64,000 nucleotides of DNA, taken from assembly GCF_000430805.1 (NCBI RefSeq), contig NZ_AUMS01000001.1, forward strand, positions 434,001-498,000, written 5' to 3'. This document shows, piece by piece, positions 35,035 to 47,894 of the stretch (position 1 is the first letter of the stretch; each line of letters begins with the position of its first letter). Source of the DNA: Chitinilyticum aquatile DSM 21506 (GTDB lineage Bacteria; Pseudomonadota; Gammaproteobacteria; Burkholderiales; Chitinibacteraceae). The position numbers were made by a program, and so were the translations under genes. A model generated the notes under the pieces. It was not told the DNA's origin, searched no databases, and worked only from the letters and a program-made list of their open reading frames with translations.

Positions 35035-36289
35035 ACCGTTTCCATACCTTGCGTATCGATTTGCTGATGTCATCAAGATCGTCAACAGTCAGTGCTGAAT
35101 GGCAAAAATCACCCAGCAACAATTCAGTCGAATACATGCGCTCAGCCACAGGGCAACTTCCGCGCGAGTAATCCAGCATATTGCGCGCTTCAGTAAACGG
35201 ATAGCCATGCGCTCCAAAGGCGATGCGCTGCTGGTAGAGTGGCTGCAAGTACAGCGGCTCGACATAGCCCTGACGCAGTGGAATACCCTCGGCGCATACT
35301 GCAGCGACAAACTCTTCGCGGGGTACGCCAAATTTGGCGGAATCGAATTTCATCGCGTAGACGTAGTAGCCATGCGTGCAGCCCTCCTGCACCAGGGGCT
35401 GCGCAATACCGGCAAGCTCAGCCATGCAGGACCGCAGATAATCGGCATTCTGCTGCCGTTTTGCGACCAGAGCAGGTAATTTCTTCAGCTGCTCGCCGGC
35501 GATTGCAGCCTCGATCTCTGTCATCCGGTAGTTGAAACCGACCATATTGACCAGGTTTTCCACTCCCTTTCCCTTCACAACCACTTCGCCATGGTTGCGA
35601 ATCAGCTGCAAACGCTCTGCCAGCGCCGGATCGTCGGTCACTGCCACACCACCTTCGCCGCAGTGAATGGTCTTGTGATAATTCAGGCTGTAAACACCAA
35701 TGTCAGCCAGCGTACCGGCCGGACGATCGTGATAGCTTGCTCCGGGTGCCTGCGCGCAATCTTCGATCACCACCAGACCATGTTCGTGAGCCAGAGCCAT
35801 GATGCCGTCGAAATCAGCCGGATGACCGAAGATATCGACAACAATGATGGCCTTGGTTTGCGACGTAATCCGGGCAGCGATGGTCGCCGGAGAAATGCAG
35901 AAGGTATCAGGATCAATATCGGCAAACACCGGAATCCCGCCATAGACCAGGGCTGCGGCAGCCGACGCCGACATGGTATAGGGCGAGACGATTACCTCGT
36001 CACCTGGTGAAACTCCTGCGGCACCGACGGCCGCATAGAGTGCCGAGGTAGCCGAATTCATGCTGACGGCGTGGGCAATACCAAAATGAGCTTCCCAGGC
36101 CCTCTCCAGCGCCTGCACACAGGGGCCGCCATAGAAATCGGGCGACCAGGTTCCCAGAAATTGGGACAGGATGCCGCGATCCAGCACCGCATTGACTGCA
36201 GCACGCTCCTCTTCACCCAGTGTGTTGTACAGCGGCATGGAGGTAGTTCGTACCGGGTTTCCACCTTCAATCGCCAATTTCTCTGCCAT
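35024..36289 (-). CDS. DegT/DnrJ/EryC1/StrS sugar aminotransferase (second in operon)
   Basis: The 421-residue PLP enzyme has the family active-site lysine Lys206 in LNYHKTIHCGEGG, and GFNYRMTEIEAAI further on. Such enzymes transaminate keto-sugar nucleotides. It is distinct from PseC (380 residues) in the same operon and carries a longer N-terminus with GGNPVR, as in StrS/ArnB-like branches. ATG at 36289 follows AAGGGA and overlaps the stop of the preceding gene (TGATG). With the neighbouring Gfo/Idh dehydrogenase and GNAT it could form a second amino-sugar branch: oxidation, transamination, N-acetylation. The exact substrate is unknown. Confidence 0.87.
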   Translation of the reverse strand: MAEKLAIEGGNPVRTTSMPLYNTLGEEERAAVNAVLDRGILSQFLGTWSPDFYGGPCVQALERAWEAHFGIAHAVSMNSATSALYAAVGAAGVSPGDEVIVSPYTMSASAAAALVYGGIPVFADIDPDTFCISPATIAARITSQTKAIIVVDIFGHPADFDGIMALAHEHGLVVIEDCAQAPGASYHDRPAGTLADIGVYSLNYHKTIHCGEGGVAVTDDPALAERLQLIRNHGEVVVKGKGVENLVNMVGFNYRMTEIEAAIAGEQLKKLPALVAKRQQNADYLRSCMAELAGIAQPLVQEGCTHGYYVYAMKFDSAKFGVPREEFVAAVCAEGIPLRQGYVEPLYLQPLYQQRIAFGAHGYPFTEARNMLDYSRGSCPVAERMYSTELLLGDFCHSALTVDDLDDISKSIRKVWKRYAR

Positions 36290-37308
36290 CACAATCCCTT
36301 CATCTTTTCCAATTCGTATCGTATACGACTAGATGCATTTATTTCATTGGGCTTCATGATCATACACCCATGCGTATTCCTTTGCCGCAGCCGAACCAGC
36401 AATTCCGGAAATCCATAGGCACGCACAATCGCCCCTTGTTCCTGCCAGGGCAGCCCATCTGTACAGGCTGTCATGCCGGGCTGGTAACTGAGCACAGGGC
36501 AGCCCAACGCAGCTGCCTCCAGCAGCAGCATGGAACTGATCCCCAGTACTTTATCGGCAGCACACAGGCAATCGTAAATATCATCCGCTTTCAGCAAAGC
36601 GAAATCCGCCCAGTCACTCGTAAACTCGCAAGCGGGTTCGCGTGGATGTTGCCGCAGACGCAAGGCCACAGGCAGCTGCAACTCGGCAAGCGCACGCTGT
36701 ATATCCTGCAGAATCTGCAACTCATCCAGCCCGCCCCGCCCCGTCAGGGCAGCCATCTCGCGCAGAGGCTGGGAGACAAATATCCATAACTCTTTCCCGG
36801 CAGCCACATGATTGATGCGGCGGATTTCAGCTTTACGCGTAGCGGTCAACGGCGGACGCCGACCAAGCTGCTCCAGCACCGGAACCCCGGCAACACACAA
36901 GCGCTCGGCCGGCAAGCCGGCATCTGCTGCCGCAGCAAGTGCCGCCCCATCTGGCAGGCCGATCCGGTCAGGAAAAACAGGCTTGCCATCCGCTGTGGTA
37001 AAACGTGCCAGGTAGTTGCTCCAGAAATCCACCACGGCAAATGAAGGTATGCCTGCCGCCTTCGCGGCTTGCCACCAGTGCAATTCATGCATCATGGCGT
37101 TGACTGAGGTTGCCGTCAGCAACACATCACAATCGCTCAGATCAGGAGTTTCCGCTGATACAACAACCCAGCCCTCAGCAGCCCAGCGGGCAAGAGTCGA
37201 GCCATAGGCAAAAAGGCGCAGCGAAAAGCCAGCATCCCGCAACTCCTGCAAAACCGGCAGGAGCACATTTCCACCTCCGGGATCGCCCGCAACAACGGCC
37301 ACGCGCAT
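36289..37308 (-). CDS. GT-B-fold protein, putative glycosyltransferase or epimerase-like
   Basis: The 339-residue protein starts with a Gly-rich loop VVAGDPGGGNVLLPVLQEL and has a second Rossmann-like half with SQPLREMA, LRLRQHPRE and ISSMLLLEAAALGCPVLSYQPG, the layout of GT-B enzymes such as UDP-GlcNAc 2-epimerase and CMP-sugar transferases. No family name can be given. It lies between the Gfo/Idh and DegT genes in the operon, with ATG at 37308 three bases after the preceding stop codon. It may transfer or prepare the operon's sugar. Confidence 0.65.
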   Translation of the reverse strand: MRVAVVAGDPGGGNVLLPVLQELRDAGFSLRLFAYGSTLARWAAEGWVVVSAETPDLSDCDVLLTATSVNAMMHELHWWQAAKAAGIPSFAVVDFWSNYLARFTTADGKPVFPDRIGLPDGAALAAAADAGLPAERLCVAGVPVLEQLGRRPPLTATRKAEIRRINHVAAGKELWIFVSQPLREMAALTGRGGLDELQILQDIQRALAELQLPVALRLRQHPREPACEFTSDWADFALLKADDIYDCLCAADKVLGISSMLLLEAAALGCPVLSYQPGMTACTDGLPWQEQGAIVRAYGFPELLVRLRQRNTHGCMIMKPNEINASSRIRYELEKMKGL

Positions 37309-37311
37309 CAA

Positions 37312-38301
37312 TCAAGCGCCCTCGCTGGCAACAGGCAGATATGCAGCAGCCTGACATGCAAGCCGCAAGGCCTGCGCAGCATCATCCGCCGAGCACAGCG
37401 GGGCGGCCCCCTGCGTAACAGCATCACGCAGATTTGCCACTGCGTGCAGCAAACTGTCACGCAAGCCCGATACGGTCTGCCAGCGCACCAGCTGCTGGTA
37501 ACCACTGAAATACGGGCTGGCCTCCACGCGATACCATTCGATATTCAGCCCTCCGTCGAGCACCCGCACTCGGCCATGAGTACCGACAATATCCATCTCG
37601 AAAAGCGTGTAATCGCGATCATCGGCTGCATGCAGATGAAGCAGCAAGCCTGACGCCGCAGACAGTATCACGTCGGGGGTTGCATCAACCCCGAATGGCC
37701 TAGCATGCGATTGCCTCACCTCATGCACGGCCAATTCGCCAAAAAACCAGCGCGCCAGATCAAGCCAGTGCGTGCCATTATGGCGAAGACCCTTGCCGTA
37801 GAAGCCGGTGACCGTGCGAATTTCACCCAGCTCACCGGAAATGATCGCCTGACGGACAGCCTGATGCGCGGAGCAAAAGCGGCGCGAATAATTCACCAGC
37901 ACGGGAATGCCACAAGCAGCAATCCGTGACAACAGCGACTCGGCTACGCCGGTGGACAGCGCCAGCGGCTTTTCCAGCAAGACTCCCCGCAATTGCGGCA
38001 CTTTAAGCGACTCGTCCAGATGACCGGCATGCAGCTCATCCGGACTGGCAATACTGATCACATCCAGCTCGGTTGTCGCGAGCATCTCGGCCGGATCGCG
38101 GAATACCCGGCAATCCGGCGCCCCGAACAGGGTCGCACAGCGCTTGGCTGTGGCCAAATCCGGATCAGCCACCGCTTGCAATGCAAGCCCATCCAGCGCA
38201 GCGTAGGCACCGGCATGCGAAGCAATGCCAACCCGCTGCACATCCTGTTGAAAGCCAAAGCCGATCCGGCCGCAACCGATCAGGCCCGCTCGCAAGGTCA
38301 C
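37312..38301 (-). CDS. Gfo/Idh/MocA oxidoreductase of the pse operon
   Basis: A 329-residue oxidoreductase with Rossmann motif GLIGCGRIGFG at the N-terminus and the family LLEKPLA (catalytic lysine). Related enzymes in nonulosonic-acid or amino-sugar clusters oxidise sugar nucleotides (WlbA-like) or cyclic sugar acids. It overlaps pseI by 4 bases, so it is co-translated with the pse genes. A role in making a 3-keto sugar for the adjacent DegT aminotransferase is an inference. Confidence 0.83.
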   Translation of the reverse strand: MTLRAGLIGCGRIGFGFQQDVQRVGIASHAGAYAALDGLALQAVADPDLATAKRCATLFGAPDCRVFRDPAEMLATTELDVISIASPDELHAGHLDESLKVPQLRGVLLEKPLALSTGVAESLLSRIAACGIPVLVNYSRRFCSAHQAVRQAIISGELGEIRTVTGFYGKGLRHNGTHWLDLARWFFGELAVHEVRQSHARPFGVDATPDVILSAASGLLLHLHAADDRDYTLFEMDIVGTHGRVRVLDGGLNIEWYRVEASPYFSGYQQLVRWQTVSGLRDSLLHAVANLRDAVTQGAAPLCSADDAAQALRLACQAAAYLPVASEGA

Positions 38302-39350
38302 CGCAGCAACTCCCAGGTCAAGGGCGTGCCACGCTTCACTTCCACTTTCAGTTCCCGTCCCAGCACCTGAGGCAGATGCCTCGTCGGCAAGCCCAAACCG
38401 GGGCGAATCGCACGGACATTGCTTTCATCCAGCACCGTTCCTGCCGGCAAATCTGCCGTAATGTAGAGCGAACGCCGGAACACGCGGGATTTCTCCTCAG
38501 CGACGGTGGCGCCATAACTCACGCGCCCCAGCGCCTGCCACGCCCGACCGGTTTCGACCACGAGTTGGGCCATTTCCTCCGGCTCCAGCGAAAAGGTCGA
38601 ATCCACACCGCCGTCGGCGCGACTCAGCGTAAAGTGCTTTTCAATCACCGTGGCACCCAGCGCCACGGCCGCGACCGAGGCTCCGACGCCCATTGTGTGA
38701 TCCGACAATCCGACTTCGCAGCCAAACAGCTCGCGCAGGTGCGGAATGGTGCGCAGATTGGTATTTTCCGGCGACGCCGGATAGGTGCTGGTGCATTTCA
38801 ACAGCACCAACTGCCGGCAGCCGGCCTCTCTTGCCGCGGTCACCGCCTCATGCAGCTCGGCGACGGTTGCCATGCCGGTAGAAATGATCATCGGCTTACC
38901 GGTCGCGGCAACCTTGCGGATCAGGGGAAGATCGGTATTTTCAAAGCTCGCAATCTTGTATGCAGGAACAGCCAGCGACTCCAGAAAATCGACGGCGCTT
39001 TCATCAAATGGCGTCGAAAAACAGAGCATGCCATGGGAAGCTGCACGAGCCATGATGGGTGCATGCCACTCCCAGGGAGTATGAGCCTGCTGATACAGCC
39101 GGTACAAGGACGTACCCGCCCACAGACTGGCAGGATCGGCGATGCGGAATTCGCCTTCATCAATATCCAGTGTCATCGTGTCAGCAGTGTACGTCTGCAA
39201 CTTGAGCGCATGGGCCCCGGCAGCGGCAGCGGCATCGACTATTGCCAGCGCCCGCTCCAGTGACTGATTGTGATTGCCGGACATTTCAGCAATCACAAAG
39301 GGCGGGTGACCTTCTCCGATGGGCATGGGGCCGATACGCATCTCGCTCAT
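38298..39350 (-). CDS. pseI: Pseudaminic acid synthase
   Basis: The 350-residue NeuB-family enzyme condenses 6-deoxy-AltdiNAc with phosphoenolpyruvate. Seen: FVIAEMSGNHNQSLERA, the barrel region with STGMA and HTMG, and a C-terminal SAF/antifreeze-like domain (about 290-350). EMSGNHN and LKLQTYTADTMT are characteristic of PseI rather than sialic-acid NeuB. It overlaps its neighbours by 4 bases on both sides. Confidence 0.92.
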   Translation of the reverse strand: MSEMRIGPMPIGEGHPPFVIAEMSGNHNQSLERALAIVDAAAAAGAHALKLQTYTADTMTLDIDEGEFRIADPASLWAGTSLYRLYQQAHTPWEWHAPIMARAASHGMLCFSTPFDESAVDFLESLAVPAYKIASFENTDLPLIRKVAATGKPMIISTGMATVAELHEAVTAAREAGCRQLVLLKCTSTYPASPENTNLRTIPHLRELFGCEVGLSDHTMGVGASVAAVALGATVIEKHFTLSRADGGVDSTFSLEPEEMAQLVVETGRAWQALGRVSYGATVAEEKSRVFRRSLYITADLPAGTVLDESNVRAIRPGLGLPTRHLPQVLGRELKVEVKRGTPLTWELLR

Positions 39351-40807
39351 GTGCGGATATCTCCAATAGAAAGGACATAGGCCTCGCCATCACGTTGATA
39401 GCCTGCGCCTTGAAAAAGGGCTAGTGATGCATGATTAGCGGGCAAAATTTCAGCCCGTATCATCGTAACATCGGGCCAGTGGCAAACCAGTTCGTGCTGT
39501 GCGCGCCGCAGCAAAGCCGCGCCCAACCCTTGTCCGATGAACTGGGGCAACAGATAGATTGATACGCACACATCAGTTTGCTGCGGCAAACGATCAAAAC
39601 GCACCACACCGACAGGTTCCGCATCAAGCTCGCCGATCAGGAACAGGCAATCCTCGTCCTTGAGCCGCGCACTAAACCAGCGATCGTGAACAGGGCGACT
39701 GATTTCATCTGTCTGCAATGCCCAGCGGCGGATTTCAGGCGCATTGCGCGAAGCGAACAGCAAGTCACGATCCACTTCCAATACACGTCTAAGTATCAGC
39801 GCACATGCTCTTATTTCATTGACTACCCGGGCAATACCCTTGCCATCGACTCGTTTTCGCCCCGCCGCCGACCAGTGTGTGCGTTGCTGGTAATCGGCTG
39901 CCAGCACAGCTGCGCGAATCGCGGGCGCATCCACCTCATCAGCCCGACCAAGATAATGATGAAGACCCGCTTCGGCCATTGCCTCCGCTCCCGGTATCTG
40001 ATTGTCAGCGACGGCAATCACCAACCCCGGCAGGCCGATTGCAGCGCGTTCCAGAGCCATTCCTCCGGCAGCACCAATAAACAGGTCGTGCTCGAGCATC
40101 AGCTCGGCCAGATTGTCAACATGCCGCAGCAGACACCAGTCAGGCTGACTCACTGCACGCTGCTGCAAGGCGTTCCAGGCCAGGTTGGCCTGCCCTGCCA
40201 GAAAAGTAAAGTGGATGCCCGGCAGGCCGGTCGCTGCGTCCATGACCTTGAATAATTCACCACCTGGATCGCTCCCGCCGAAACTGACCAGCACCCGCCT
40301 TATCGTCCGGGATACCTGGTATGTTTTGCCGGCAAACTGCTCGCGCAGCAGGGCATAGCGAGGCCCAAGCAGCAAACGGCAGCCCTTACCCACCAGAGGG
40401 CGATAGTCACTCTCTGAAAAGGAAAGATTATGGTCAAGCACAATGTCTGCTGCATGAGGACGATTGCACAGGTCATCTATCGCCAGCAGATGCCGCACCC
40501 GGGGGCGCATGACCAGTTCCCAGTGGGCATCGAGTTCGTAATGATCAACGATCAGCCAGTCTGGAGGCTGTGGCAGGCTCTGCAGTATGCAGTCAGCCTC
40601 TTCCTGCGCATCGACCGCGCCAAGCAAAGGCAGCAAGCGGTATTGGCGCTGCCGCAGCATATCCTGCAAGGACTGCGGCAACTCGCGACATGCGAAGGTG
40701 ATTTCCGCTCCGGAATGAGACAAACCATCGGCCAGTGCCAGACAGCGCATGATATGGCCCGTCCCGATTGCCGGTGAAGCATCAGCCCGAAACAGGATCT
40801 GTGTCAT
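39347..40807 (-). CDS. pseG: PseG nucleotide-sugar hydrolase fused to a GNAT acetyltransferase
   Basis: The 486-residue protein joins two functions. Residues 1-330 are PseG: FRADASPAIGTGHIMRCLALAD at the start, LVSFGGSDPGG and GAAGGMALERAAIGLP, a GT-B-like hydrolase removing UDP from UDP-6-deoxy-AltdiNAc. Residues 345-486 form a GNAT domain (acetyl-CoA loop FIGQGLGAAL, then ILPANHASLALFQGAGY), plausibly the PseH step that acetylates the 4-amino group. A fusion would couple consecutive pathway steps and explains why no separate PseH lies next to it. Both parts are uninterrupted in one frame. Confidence 0.88.
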   Translation of the reverse strand: MTQILFRADASPAIGTGHIMRCLALADGLSHSGAEITFACRELPQSLQDMLRQRQYRLLPLLGAVDAQEEADCILQSLPQPPDWLIVDHYELDAHWELVMRPRVRHLLAIDDLCNRPHAADIVLDHNLSFSESDYRPLVGKGCRLLLGPRYALLREQFAGKTYQVSRTIRRVLVSFGGSDPGGELFKVMDAATGLPGIHFTFLAGQANLAWNALQQRAVSQPDWCLLRHVDNLAELMLEHDLFIGAAGGMALERAAIGLPGLVIAVADNQIPGAEAMAEAGLHHYLGRADEVDAPAIRAAVLAADYQQRTHWSAAGRKRVDGKGIARVVNEIRACALILRRVLEVDRDLLFASRNAPEIRRWALQTDEISRPVHDRWFSARLKDEDCLFLIGELDAEPVGVVRFDRLPQQTDVCVSIYLLPQFIGQGLGAALLRRAQHELVCHWPDVTMIRAEILPANHASLALFQGAGYQRDGEAYVLSIGDIRT

Positions 40808-41517
40808 GCCTGCGCCTGCGCCGAATCGGTCAGCGCAGCATGCATTAGTTCGGCACGAATCCAGTCTTCTGGCGTATCAATATCCTGCACCAGATGGCGC
40901 GGGAGAATCACCGGCAGAGAAGCGGGCGAAAAAATCACCTCTCCGCTTACCCAAGCCTCACAACGCCCCCAGTAGAACTGGCCCGCATCGTGATAGACCT
41001 CGTCCAGATCCTGCGAGCGGGTATTCCGGAACTCCGGGTACATGGCTTCAACACGGCCAGCGGCATTCAGCCGAATACCCCGCTGCACCGGAAACGGAAA
41101 CGTAGTCACCGAGAAAGCGTAGGCGGCATCGGGGTGCGCGGTGAGCTGCTCATAGCCCTGGCGGAGATACTGTGGCTGCACAAAAGGAGCGGTTGCATAG
41201 ATGCAGCAGACAAACTCCGCAGTATTACCCTGCTCGCGAAGCGCAAGAATGGCGTGTCGGATCACCTCGACCGTAGTGGAATAATCACCGGAAAACTCGG
41301 CCGGACGCACAAACGGCGTTTCTGCTCCAAGGTCTCGCGCCACAGCGGCGATCTCAGCGTCGTCCGTGCTAACCACAACGCGGTCGAACAAACCCGAATC
41401 CAGCGCAGCCCTGATCGAATAGGCAATCATTGGCTGGCCGTGGAACAGGCGAATGTTCTTGCGCGGAATCCGTTTGCTGCCACCGCGCGCCGGAATGATG
41501 GCAATGCTCCCGCTCAT
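40804..41517 (-). CDS. pseF: Pseudaminic acid cytidylyltransferase
   Basis: The 237-residue enzyme makes CMP-pseudaminic acid from CTP. Seen: the nucleotide loop IPARGGSKRIPRKNI, STDDAEIA, and YPEFRNTRSQDLDEVYHDAGQFYWG (in parts), as in PseF/NeuA. It overlaps pseC and pseG by 4 bases each. Confidence 0.93.
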   Translation of the reverse strand: MSGSIAIIPARGGSKRIPRKNIRLFHGQPMIAYSIRAALDSGLFDRVVVSTDDAEIAAVARDLGAETPFVRPAEFSGDYSTTVEVIRHAILALREQGNTAEFVCCIYATAPFVQPQYLRQGYEQLTAHPDAAYAFSVTTFPFPVQRGIRLNAAGRVEAMYPEFRNTRSQDLDEVYHDAGQFYWGRCEAWVSGEVIFSPASLPVILPRHLVQDIDTPEDWIRAELMHAALTDSAQAQA

Positions 41518-42656
41518 TGCAGCAACTCCTTCAATACACTGACCACTTCATCCTGCTGTGCATCCGTCATTCCGGCATGCAGTGGCAGCGTGATTGCCCG
41601 CTGATAATATGCTTCGGCAACCGGGCAATAGCCCCTAGTGAAGCCTTGCGCTTGGTAATAAGGCTGCAGATGCACGGGAATATAGTGCACGTTCACCCCG
41701 ACGCCACGTGCGCGCAGCTCGGTAAAAATGGCCTTGCGACGGGATGCATCGGCCAGCTGCACCACATACAGGTGCCAGGCTGATTCCTCACTAGGGGGCG
41801 GCAGAATCAGCGGCAGATCGGCGAGCAACGCGGTATAACGGCGTGCCAACTGACGACGCCGCAGCAGAAATACGTCAAGCCGCTGCAGCTGGGACAGCCC
41901 CAGCGCAGCCTGAAGATCAGTCATGCGGTAATTGAAACCCAACTCCAGCATCTGGTAGTACCATTCTCCCTCGCAGGCCGAATTCATCAGTGCCGGGTCG
42001 CGGGTAATTCCGTGACTGCGCAGGCGCTGCAGCTGATCAGCCCACTCGCGACGGTTGGTGAGCACCGCTCCACCTTCGGCGGTGGTGATGATTTTCACCG
42101 GATGAAAGCTGAACACCGTCATATCGGCATATTCACCACTCGCCACCGGCTGCCCGAGATAGTTTGCACCCACCGCATGCGAGGCATCTTCGATCACGAC
42201 AAAGCCATACTCTCGGGCCAATTGCCACAGTGCCTGCATGTCCGCACTACGCCCGGAAAACGCCACCGGGATCACGGCTTTCGGCAAACTGCCGCACTGT
42301 GAGGCTACAGCCAGCCGCTCAGCCAGCAGCCCGATATCGATATTGAGGGTATATGGATCAATATCAATAAAATCAACGGTTGCCCCACAATACATTGCAC
42401 AGTTTGCCGAAGCTACAAAGGTGTTCGGACTTGTCCAGACCTGATCGCCCTCACCAACGCCAGCGGCGAGACACGCCAGATGCAGTGCGGCCGTAGCACT
42501 GCTGACTGCCACTGCATGCCTGGCACCAGTACGCGCGCACAACGCAGCCTCGAAGGCAGGAACAGCCGGACCTTGCGTCAGCCAGTCGGAGCGCAACACC
42601 CCGTCGACAGCGGCAATATCGTCCTCGCTGATCTGCTGGCGGCCATACGGAATCAT
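41514..42656 (-). CDS. pseC: UDP-4-amino-4,6-dideoxy-N-acetyl-beta-L-altrosamine transaminase
   Basis: The 380-residue PLP aminotransferase performs the second step of CMP-pseudaminate synthesis. Active-site Lys188 in SFHPVKIITTAEGG is PseC-typical, as are MIPYGRQ at the N-terminus and GFNYRMTDLQAALG. Four-base overlaps with pseB and pseF. Confidence 0.94.
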   Translation of the reverse strand: MIPYGRQQISEDDIAAVDGVLRSDWLTQGPAVPAFEAALCARTGARHAVAVSSATAALHLACLAAGVGEGDQVWTSPNTFVASANCAMYCGATVDFIDIDPYTLNIDIGLLAERLAVASQCGSLPKAVIPVAFSGRSADMQALWQLAREYGFVVIEDASHAVGANYLGQPVASGEYADMTVFSFHPVKIITTAEGGAVLTNRREWADQLQRLRSHGITRDPALMNSACEGEWYYQMLELGFNYRMTDLQAALGLSQLQRLDVFLLRRRQLARRYTALLADLPLILPPPSEESAWHLYVVQLADASRRKAIFTELRARGVGVNVHYIPVHLQPYYQAQGFTRGYCPVAEAYYQRAITLPLHAGMTDAQQDEVVSVLKELLQ

Positions 42657-43648
42657 GGCGTTGCCCGATCCAGCGCCTGCAGTTCGGCGATATCGAGAAA
42701 CTGAGGGTTGTTATCCGATGCGAAATAAAATCCTTCCGGCGTCAGCACGCCGGTTTCGCCGGCCTCATTCGATTCGTAGCCGTGCTTGACGATGAAAGTG
42801 ATCGATGGCGCGATCACATAATGATCGGCAAATTCATAGGTATGAAAGCTGTCATCGCTGGAAATCATCAGCTCGTGCAGTTTTTCGCCAGGCCGGATTC
42901 CGATGATGTGCTGGGGCAAATCCGGTGCCATCGCGCGCGCAAGGTCGGTGATGCGCACCGACGGAATTTTCGGAACGAACAACTCGCCGCCCTGCATGCG
43001 ACCAAAATTGGCCAGCACAAAATCCACTCCCTGCTGCAAGGTAATCCAGAAACGGGTCATTCGCGCATCGGTAATCGGCAGACTCTGCGCACCATCGGAA
43101 ATCAGCTTGCGAAAAAACGGTACGACGGAACCACGCGAACCGACCACATTGCCATAGCGCACGACGGCAAAGCGTGTGCGATGACCGCCAACGATATTGT
43201 TTGCTGCAATGAACAGTTTGTCTGACAGCAGCTTGGTGGCGCCGTAGAGATTGATCGGACTGGCCGCCTTGTCGGTTGAAAGTGCGATGACTTTTTCAAC
43301 CCCATTCTCGATCGCAGCGCTAATGACATTCTCTGCCCCTGAGACATTGGTACGAATGCACTCGGTCGGATTATATTCGGCAGCAGGAACCTGCTTCAGC
43401 GCAGCAGCGTGTACTACATAATCGATGCCGCGCATGGCCTGTTTCAGGCGATCAGCATCACGCACATCACCTAGAAAGAAACGCATGCAAGGGTCAGTAA
43501 ACTCCTGCTGCATCTCGAACTGCTTCAGTTCGTCACGAGAGAAAACAACGATACGTGCCGGCTTATAACGCTGCAGCAAGGTTCGGATGAACATTTTGCC
43601 GAATGATCCTGTGCCACCAGTGATTAGAATGGATTTCTGGTCAAACAT
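42653..43648 (-). CDS. pseB: UDP-GlcNAc 4,6-dehydratase (inverting)
   Basis: The 331-residue SDR performs the first, committed step of pseudaminic acid synthesis with C5 inversion. Seen: TGGTGSFGK (10-18), the region SPINLYGATK with the YxxxK pair, RYGNVVGSRGSV, and FVPKIPSVRI. It is the first gene of the ten-gene operon. The transcript probably starts near 43.73 kb from a FliA promoter, giving an 80-base leader with a palindrome. Confidence 0.95.
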   Translation of the reverse strand: MFDQKSILITGGTGSFGKMFIRTLLQRYKPARIVVFSRDELKQFEMQQEFTDPCMRFFLGDVRDADRLKQAMRGIDYVVHAAALKQVPAAEYNPTECIRTNVSGAENVISAAIENGVEKVIALSTDKAASPINLYGATKLLSDKLFIAANNIVGGHRTRFAVVRYGNVVGSRGSVVPFFRKLISDGAQSLPITDARMTRFWITLQQGVDFVLANFGRMQGGELFVPKIPSVRITDLARAMAPDLPQHIIGIRPGEKLHELMISSDDSFHTYEFADHYVIAPSITFIVKHGYESNEAGETGVLTPEGFYFASDNNPQFLDIAELQALDRATP

Positions 43649-43775: not shown

Positions 43776-43812
43776 AAACAAAAAGGCCCCGGAGGCGCGA
43801 CTCCGAGGCCCT
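43776..43812 (-). terminator. Terminator of cro-galU
   Basis: Stem AGGGCCTCGGAG/CTCCGGGGCCTT (one mismatch) with loop TCGCGC, followed by TTTTTTG. It separates galU from the pse promoter. Confidence 0.85.
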
Positions 43813-43830
43813 CGGCAAGAAAAAGTGGAA

Positions 43831-44904
43831 TCAGCCTTTCTGCGCGCAATATGCCCGCAGGTAGCGGTCAAACTCCTCGCCCACCTCGTAATGCTTGCGC
43901 CCCAGTTCGACCGTTGCCTTCAGGTAACCCAGCTTCGAGCCACAGTCATAGCGCACTCCCTCAAGCTTGTGCGCGAGGATGTGCTGCTCCTGCATCAGCG
44001 CAAAAATGCCGTCGGTGAGCTGAATCTCGCCACCCTTGCCCGGCTGTACGTGCTGGAGGTGATGGAAGATGCGCGGAGTGAGGATGTAGCGACCGACGAC
44101 AGCCAGGTTGGACGGCGCTTCTTCGGGCTTCGGCTTCTCGACGATGTTGTTGATGCGCAGGCGATTGGCCGGCGCATCCTGCACCTCGACAATGCCGTAG
44201 GAGCCGGTTTCTTCCTTCGCCACTTCCTCGACGCCCAGCACGGAGCAATGCGTGTCGTTGAACACATCCACCATGTATTTCATTTCCGGACCATCAATCA
44301 GGTCATCGGCCAGAATCACGGCAAACGGTTCGTCGCCGACCACCGGCTTGGCGCACAGTACGGCGTGGCCCAGGCCCAGCGCCTCGGGCTGGCGGATGTA
44401 AATGCAGGTCACCGATTTCGGAATAATGCCGCGCAGAATTTCCAGCAGCTTGTCCTTGCCCTTGGCTTCCAGCTCGTTTTCCAGCTCGTAGGCCTTGTCG
44501 AAGTGGTCCTCGATGCTGCGCTTGTTGCGCCCGGTGATGAAGACCATCTCGGTGATGCCGGCCGCCAGCGCCTCTTCGACGGCATACTGGATCAGCGGTT
44601 TGTCGACCACCGGCATCATTTCCTTGGGGCTGGCCTTGGTGGCGGGCAGGAAGCGGGTGCCCATACCGGCAACCGGAAAAACGGCCTTGCGAACCTTTTG
44701 CATGCTGCTGTCCTCTGCAATCGAAGGGATAAGTCGGGGATGGTGTTTCAGCAAACCGAGCCGCAATGCCGCACCCAGCACCTGATCGGCCTGACGTTGC
44801 GGCAAAAGATCGGGCCACTGCGAAATGGCCGAGCGCCCGAGGCCGAGTGCTTCGGCAAGACGGGTCTGGGTGCCAAACAGTTGCAGGGCTTCGGATTTGC
44901 GCAT
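43831..44904 (-). CDS. galU: Cro-like DNA-binding domain fused to UTP-glucose-1-phosphate uridylyltransferase (GalU)
   Basis: The 357-residue frame joins a Cro-family domain (1-54, with helix-turn-helix [17 protein letters not shown] at 14-30) through a short linker (55-67) to a complete 290-residue GalU starting at Met68. GalU makes UDP-glucose for envelope sugars; [17 protein letters not shown] and [13 protein letters not shown] are its UTP- and substrate-site signatures. ATG at 44904 begins the Cro part (a GTG at 44910 is also in frame). Met68 (44703) has GAGG 8 bases upstream, so a plain GalU may also be made. Two palindromes overlap the promoter. I know of no GalU with such a domain. Confidence 0.85.
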
Positions 44905-44910
44905 GAGCAC

Positions 44911-44977
44911 ATGTTCAAACTATTGAACAGCAATGTCAACATCCGAAAGCACCAAAAAATGTTCAAATAATTAAACA
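44911..44977 (-). promoter_or_regulatory. Promoter with two 18 bp palindromic operators for cro-galU
   Basis: Palindromes TGTTCAAACTATTGAACA (44912-44929) and TGTTCAAATAATTAAACA (44960-44977) share the form TGTTCAA-N4-TT(G/A)AACA and are 48 bp apart. On the minus strand a -35 TTGACA (44939-44934) is followed after 17 bp by GAACAT (44916-44911) as a weak -10; operator 1 fills the spacer. The start of transcription would then be within a few bases of the ATG, suggesting a leaderless or very short leader mRNA. Autoregulation by the Cro part is inferred. Confidence 0.7.
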
Positions 44978-45030: not shown

Positions 45031-45434
45031 CTAGCCGATGCGATGCACCTCCATCACCCCGGCCATGGTGTCGTAGTAGAAGTAATCACTGCGATTATCC
45101 GCCAGCCAGACGATCTGCCGCCGCTGCGGCTGTGGTACATGGCAAATCATGCCATCACCGAATTGCAGGCATTGCGCAACGCTCACCGTTGCCTGGGGCC
45201 AGTCCATTTTCTGCCAGAATCGCAGGCGTGCCGCGTCATCGAGCACCTTGCCCGCCATGCAACTATCGTCACCATGCTGCAGCACCTGATAAATACCGGC
45301 AGTACTGCGCTGCACAGTCCATACCGCGTCATTGCGTTTGCCGGTGAAGGCGTGGCCATATACCCCGGAAAGTACCTCCGCACAGCCATTTACTGACAAT
45401 ACGGCCAGCCCGATACCCGCAAGCAACTTTCCCA

Positions 45435-45435
<1 letters not shown>
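45031..45435 (-). CDS. Putative small lipoprotein, unknown
   Basis: The 134-residue product starts with a signal sequence and a lipobox-like VNGC (Cys18 from the second Met). It has several further cysteines (DDSCMAG, QCLQFGDGMICH) and YDTMAGVMEVHRIG at the end. No family is recognised. ATG at 45435 overlaps the ligA stop, so it is probably co-transcribed at the end of the smc-zipA-ligA block. It could be a periplasmic or outer-membrane lipoprotein with a disulfide. Confidence 0.6.

Positions 45436-47894
<2,459 letters not shown>

Follow-up and report, generated by a model that had tools for sequence, protein, structure and literature searches.

The 64,000-nucleotide window analysed here, from Chitinilyticum aquatile DSM 21506 (contig NZ_AUMS01000001.1, positions 434,001 to 498,000; coordinates below are window positions), carries on its minus strand a gene, called cro-galU here, in which a phage-type Cro repressor domain is followed by a complete GalU, the common enzyme of UDP-glucose synthesis from UTP and glucose-1-phosphate. 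An earlier note on this DNA, written from the letters alone, had described the two parts as sharing one frame, and this holds: a single frame at 43831-44910 is open without interruption from the Cro domain into GalU, and P22_Cro and TIGR01099 both score above their cut-offs within it. The product has 357 residues when read from the ATG at 44904 and 359 when read from an in-frame GTG at 44910, two codons upstream. The features of the locus, with counts over the fused loci of related genomes described below, are the following (SD, Shine-Dalgarno; pN/pS, ratio of nonsynonymous to synonymous proportions).

43831..44904, minus strand: fused cro-galU coding sequence, 357 codons from the ATG (359 from the GTG at 44910)
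44743..44904, minus strand: Cro domain of the P22/DicC type, residues 1-54, supported by Pfam, profile search, AlphaFold2/Foldseek and pN/pS
44704..44742, minus strand: variable linker, residues 55-67; five Met-to-Met lengths, frame kept, pN/pS 0.85
43831..44703, minus strand: GalU from Met68, 290 codons; TIGR01099 above cut-off, ATG in 40/40 loci
44711..44715, minus strand: SD-like GAGGA before the internal GalU start; SD 4-mer in 40/40 loci, energy test p 0.0015 over ten genus representatives
44912..44929, no strand: proximal palindrome (putative operator) over the spacer and the -10 box; at most 2 mismatches in 40/40 loci
44960..44977, no strand: distal palindrome (putative operator); at most 3 mismatches in 40/40 loci
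44934..44939, minus strand: -35 box TTGACA; TTG in 40/40 loci; the proximal palindrome begins 10 nt after the box begins
44911..44916, minus strand: predicted -10 box GAACAT in the right half of the proximal palindrome, placed by geometry, with 3/6 consensus bases
43782..43813, minus strand: intrinsic-terminator-like hairpin 3' of galU; 4 such sites in the region vs. 1.7 in shuffles

In Pfam, P22_Cro (PF14549) gives 33.0 bits against a cut-off of 30.2 at residues 4-43 of the 359-residue form, with 40 of the 60 model positions matched, and NTP_transferase follows C-terminally with 112.7 bits. Among NCBIfam models, galU (TIGR01099) reaches 383.2 bits (cut-off 326.8) over residues 73-332, and DicC (NF007282) 27.6 bits, well under its cut-off of 130. 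A profile built from 17 Cro parts of the family was compared with solved structures, and its top match turned out to be P22 Cro, 1rzs (E = 1e-8). The AlphaFold2 model of residues 1-59 has a predicted local distance difference test score (pLDDT) of 89.8, and 1rzs is again its best Foldseek match (template modelling score 0.72, E 1.4e-3; nothing at E ≤ 1e-3). As modelled, the N-terminal domain has the Cro fold. The full-length model has a mean pLDDT of 51.5, and its GalU part is unusable. Phage records matching the Cro part include DicC, ZF40 Cro and similar proteins, the best 20 of 141 being 30-49% identical (best E 1e-5). GalU forms oligomers, and the presence of at least four chains per entry in the solved GalUs 2e3d, 6mnu, 2ux8 and 8f73 agrees with this without demonstrating it.

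Distribution, selection and history of the fusion

The fused frame was found in 40 of the 43 genomes searched from the GTDB family, a group of environmental bacteria, and in 10 of its 11 genera, among them Deefgea, Chitinibacter, Iodobacter, Andreprevotia and Chitinolyticbacter. These 40 fused loci are the set used for the counts of frame, start codon, palindromes, promoter and pN/pS. The earlier note had proposed this search for an N-terminal Cro extension with a conserved linker frame, and had named a stop codon between Cro and GalU in relatives as one observation that would speak against a fusion. Such a stop was looked for and is absent: all 40 loci can be read without a break from the Cro ATG through the last codon of GalU, and the Met-to-Met distance is 60, 61, 62, 63 or 67 codons, in frame every time. 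An apparent stop in G034 proved to lie outside the fused frame, which runs open for 369 codons. The three other genomes (G024, G025 and G026), all of genus g8, show nothing that matches Cro at E ≤ 0.1. Since their nucleotidyl transferase matches are also only weak (best 2.7e-14 at 32% identity), Cro and GalU may have been lost together in this genus or never gained. Judged by these alignments, cro-galU is a true Cro-GalU fusion, real and present beyond a single genome.

Both halves are under selection by the measure of pN/pS, and that on the Cro part is purifying. Over the 40 loci, Cro has a ratio of 0.20, the linker 0.85 and GalU 0.12 (uncorrected proportions, near saturation). The helix-turn-helix core does not vary among these loci, nor does the last helix (DQ..GAA.R.G).

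By their GalU parts, the 40 fused loci group into one clade among 113 tree rows (support 100/99, 99% of 200 bootstrap trees), which adjoins unfused Chromobacteriaceae and then Chitinimonas in a midpoint-rooted tree with long branches elsewhere. A single gain of the fusion is the simplest history. Two unfused Chitinimonas loci are labelled Chitinibacteraceae in the tree, so that the family under this label includes unfused members; it may differ from the GTDB family searched. The best 80 GalU loci of a wider search comprise 8 fused and 72 unfused ones; fused GalU shares 70-76% identity with the unfused relatives aligned. One genome (G002) carries a second GalU-like gene, L047, which is unfused, 60% identical over residues 70-352 and placed on a very long branch.

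A search of 399 genomes of the order with the junction protein returned 13 family members, all fused, and no fusion elsewhere among the matches listed, which also include unfused genomes aligned from about residue 15 with stops inside. Two candidates for a fusion outside the family were rejected: G273 aligns from residue 4 in an open frame, but the upstream frame holds no Cro sequence, and L092 aligns from residue 17, again with no Cro sequence upstream. The Cro profile gave matches in 21 of 300 genomes of the order, 10 being family members that carry the fusion. The other 11 have them in frames of 57-107 residues (8 genomes) or in longer ones (G251 and G259, on contigs other than those of their GalU, and G216, in an 867-residue frame). 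Across 369 genomes of the class and 398 of the phylum, the profile found, apart from the window gene, only frames of 59-149 residues. The three Cro profile searches covered sampled genomes, with the best 16-22 first-look candidates scored in each, and absence from them is not exhaustive. Among plasmid records, the 10 best of 287 are GalU or sugar nucleotidyl transferases or unannotated, with alignments from residue 10 or later.

The best stand-alone Cro relative in the class, L135, has a similar last helix, and two of the three stand-alone loci read (L135 and L137) lie beside CI-like repressors, none being visible at L136. The similar helix and these two neighbourhoods suggest, without proving, a prophage source of the Cro domain. 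None of the three loci has a palindrome of the cro-galU type with fewer than 4 mismatches.

Putative operators, promoter and internal start

The two 18 bp palindromes follow the pattern TGTTYAA-N4-TTRAACA. Both had been seen in the earlier note; they are exact in the window and recur upstream of cro-galU in 40/40 loci, most of which have an imperfect copy. The window contains no further match with up to 2 mismatches, and shuffled sequences have a mean of 0.15, 3 of 100 shuffles reaching two. In the whole C. aquatile genome the only exact palindromes are the two at cro-galU; in the 43 family genomes there are 27, 20 of them at cro-galU, vs. 1 match of the reversed control pattern. The proximal palindrome, whose first base lies 24-26 nt upstream of the Cro ATG, has 0, 1 or 2 mismatches in 11, 18 and 11 loci, respectively. 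The distal one lies 48-51 bp further upstream, with 0, 1, 2 or 3 mismatches in 9, 21, 6 and 4 loci. In the roughly 380 nt upstream of the 72 unfused GalU loci (under 300 nt for one of them), no locus has two sites at up to 3 mismatches; a single site occurs at 2 mismatches in one of them and at 3 in five. The conserved pair could be binding sites for the fused Cro at its own promoter.

Both palindromes had been thought to overlap the promoter, one of them sitting exactly in the spacer between the -35 and -10 boxes. The proximal palindrome does overlap the promoter core, but the distal one lies 20 bp upstream of the -35, so that the core is overlapped by the proximal one only. The fit to the 17-nt spacer is likewise partial: the proximal palindrome covers its last 13 bases, but also extends over the first 5 bases of the -10. 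Over the set of loci the -10 reads RAACAT, with AACA in 40/40 and the following T in 36/40; L013 has two overlapping -35 matches, one in register like the other loci. The Cro ATG is situated 6-8 nt past the end of the proximal palindrome, where transcription is predicted to begin, and a leaderless fusion message is therefore expected. This start is ATG in 40/40 loci and is preceded by an SD 4-mer in 1/40. Geometry and absence of an SD together fit a leaderless message in 39/40 loci, the 5' end being predicted from geometry. A known example of a leaderless message is that of lambda cI from PRM.

Met68 corresponds to the ATG at 44703-44701, with GAGGA at 44715-44711. The suggestion that it has a ribosome site of its own, giving two possible starts, is borne out by the relatives, in which both ATGs and the SD-like motif recur (40/40). 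The SD 4-mer starts 10-14 nt upstream of the GalU ATG, and 46/502 Cro-frame windows from ten representatives contain such a 4-mer, as the base rate. With one representative per genus (n = 10), the mean pairing energy is -6.6 kcal/mol vs. -4.7 after synonymous recoding (p 0.0015) and vs. -2.3 at other Cro-frame codons (p 0.0005). The means over all 40 loci are -5.9 at the GalU start, -3.9 when recoded, -2.5 at other codons and -0.4 before the Cro ATG. The motif begins in all three codon phases (31, 6 and 3 loci, which are not independent). Within five groups of relatives, the linker/GalU synonymous proportions (pS) are 0.00/0.27, 0.07/0.53, 0.09/0.56, 0.38/0.51 and 0.44/0.61, with few sites and as supporting data only. 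By the recoding comparison, the SD-like motif before Met68 is kept at the nucleotide level, beyond what synonymous recoding gives, and Cro-GalU is probably made in two forms. Relative to the earlier note, the family-wide fusion, the leaderless promoter geometry, the nucleotide-level SD-like motif and the prophage-like stand-alone Cro relatives are additions.

The terminator-like hairpin 3' of the gene is in keeping with a single-gene unit. After galU, a pseudaminic acid gene set occupies 37312-43648 (minus strand), in which PseB, PseC, PseF and PseI exceed their NCBIfam cut-offs and a Gfo/Idh-type oxidoreductase follows. A 486-residue frame at 39347-40807 (minus strand) matches PseG with 266.5 bits (cut-off 153.55) and has a C-terminal GNAT domain that resembles PseH (47.4 bits, below the cut-off of 93.1); a PseG-PseH fusion is possible. 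Pfam gives no match for the 340-residue frame of this cluster at 36289-37311 (minus strand), and none at E up to 1 for the 135-residue frame at 45031-45438 (minus strand), between ligA and cro-galU.

Proposed mechanism and alternatives

We consider it likely that Cro-GalU is a self-repressing metabolic enzyme, with Cro joined once to galU, putative operators at its own promoter and two forms of the protein. A prophage-type Cro domain would have been joined to the chromosomal galU in the family ancestor. The Cro domains, gathered by a GalU oligomer that might offer two or more Cro pairs to these sites, would bind both palindromic operators, and Cro bound at the proximal site would mask the spacer and the -10 and keep RNA polymerase out. 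The gene would then be expressed only to the extent that GalU is scarce, and its promoter would be shut when GalU is plentiful. Since the palindromes at its own promoter are conserved, the enzyme probably controls its own amount. Ribosomes would start on the 5'-terminal AUG of a leaderless message to make the fusion and on the internal, SD-led AUG to make plain GalU, giving a regulatory form and an enzyme-only form; the latter could dilute the Cro arms in mixed oligomers. More tentatively, leaderless Cro-GalU and SD-led plain GalU might co-assemble into a two-form rheostat, in which repressor strength would track the leaderless/SD-led initiation ratio and the bound substrate (UTP or glucose-1-phosphate), with a possible effect of the product UDP-glucose as well. 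In that case the promoter would receive from the enzyme a signal of enzyme dose as well as of UDP-glucose supply.

Several observations weigh against self-repression with two forms. Seven exact palindromes lie away from cro-galU, in 6 of the 43 genomes, and four distal palindromes have 3 mismatches. The centre spacing of the two palindromes varies (48-51 bp), which makes a rigid contact from one site to the other less plausible and fits flexible arms better. With a -10 this poor, a generic sigma-70 consensus scan detects no promoter at the locus, and the promoter call therefore rests on conservation. As to the internal start, only 5/40 linkers singly exceed 95% of their own synonymous recodings, and pS over the 40 loci is as high in the linker as in GalU (0.71 vs. 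0.69).

A plain dose feedback, in which Cro represses, practically only the fusion is made, no metabolite is sensed and the SD-like motif is left over from the former galU start, would draw on the same repression evidence and on the leaderless AUG in 40/40 loci. We regard it as somewhat doubtful, given that the motif is kept in 40/40 despite near-saturated synonymous sites (pS about 0.7) and is stronger than under synonymous recoding. The unequal positions of the two sites and the weak promoter core could instead point to an activator or a two-way switch, with distal binding (centre near -65) activating and proximal binding repressing at a higher dose. This seems unlikely, as the proximal site covers the -10 and the varying spacing leaves the helix face unfixed.

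That Cro-GalU also controls other genes, for instance envelope or glycan genes, is in our opinion distinctly unlikely. The seven distant exact sites and the pseudaminic acid genes adjoining cro-galU would suit such a wider role, but both exact sites of C. aquatile are at cro-galU, and the window lacks another even at 2 mismatches. It is hardly credible that the Cro part is an inert remnant, with GalU from Met68 as the only product. Met68 does have the better ribosome site; however, the pN/pS of Cro, its invariant helix-turn-helix core, the frame kept in 40/40 loci across five linker lengths and the conserved palindromes all argue against this.

Comparison with known systems

To our knowledge, few enzymes bear a DNA-binding domain of their own. 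The best reading of these genomes is that Cro-GalU works like a trigger enzyme, as a further variant of this kind. Trigger enzymes named in Escherichia coli in one survey are BirA, NadR, PepA, PutA and PyrH, with PutA listed there as a single-target regulator that binds its own putA-putP region only (PMC8249747). Another paper describes PutA and BirA, and GalU is not named in its available text (PMC6978683). Like PutA, BirA and NadR, Cro-GalU combines an enzyme and a DNA-binding domain in one protein, with candidate sites at its own gene; it differs in the enzyme (GalU) and in the DNA-binding domain (P22-type Cro). The earlier note knew of no GalU with this domain, and in searches of open-access literature no title or abstract opening among those listed describes a GalU with a DNA-binding domain, most subscription journals being outside their scope.

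With the P22 Cro/DicC phage repressors, Cro-GalU has in common the domain family, the modelled fold and the 18 bp palindromic site, and P22 operator sites are of about this size. Those repressors are stand-alone proteins of about 60-100 residues, whereas Cro-GalU is an enzyme fusion kept on the chromosome at galU. Compared with ordinary GalU (TIGR01099), it holds the complete enzyme plus an N-terminal domain, its own palindromes and a predicted leaderless start. With a conserved Cro-GalU, the DNA-binding enzymes would gain a member from central sugar-nucleotide metabolism, and a phage-type repressor domain would be seen to have been retained in ten genera for regulating a housekeeping enzyme. 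Cro-GalU would also offer a compact natural circuit of one gene, two operators and two start codons, suited to direct tests of enzyme dose, of translation without a leader and of feedback.

The nearest leaderless two-protein precedent found is VirF of Shigella, for which the report describes one gene giving a long form (VirF30) and a short form (VirF21) from different starts, with one leaderless message and negative autoregulation (PMC5101355). In VirF, as described there, it is the short form that is leaderless and acts as the autorepressor, whereas in Cro-GalU both roles are predicted for the long form.
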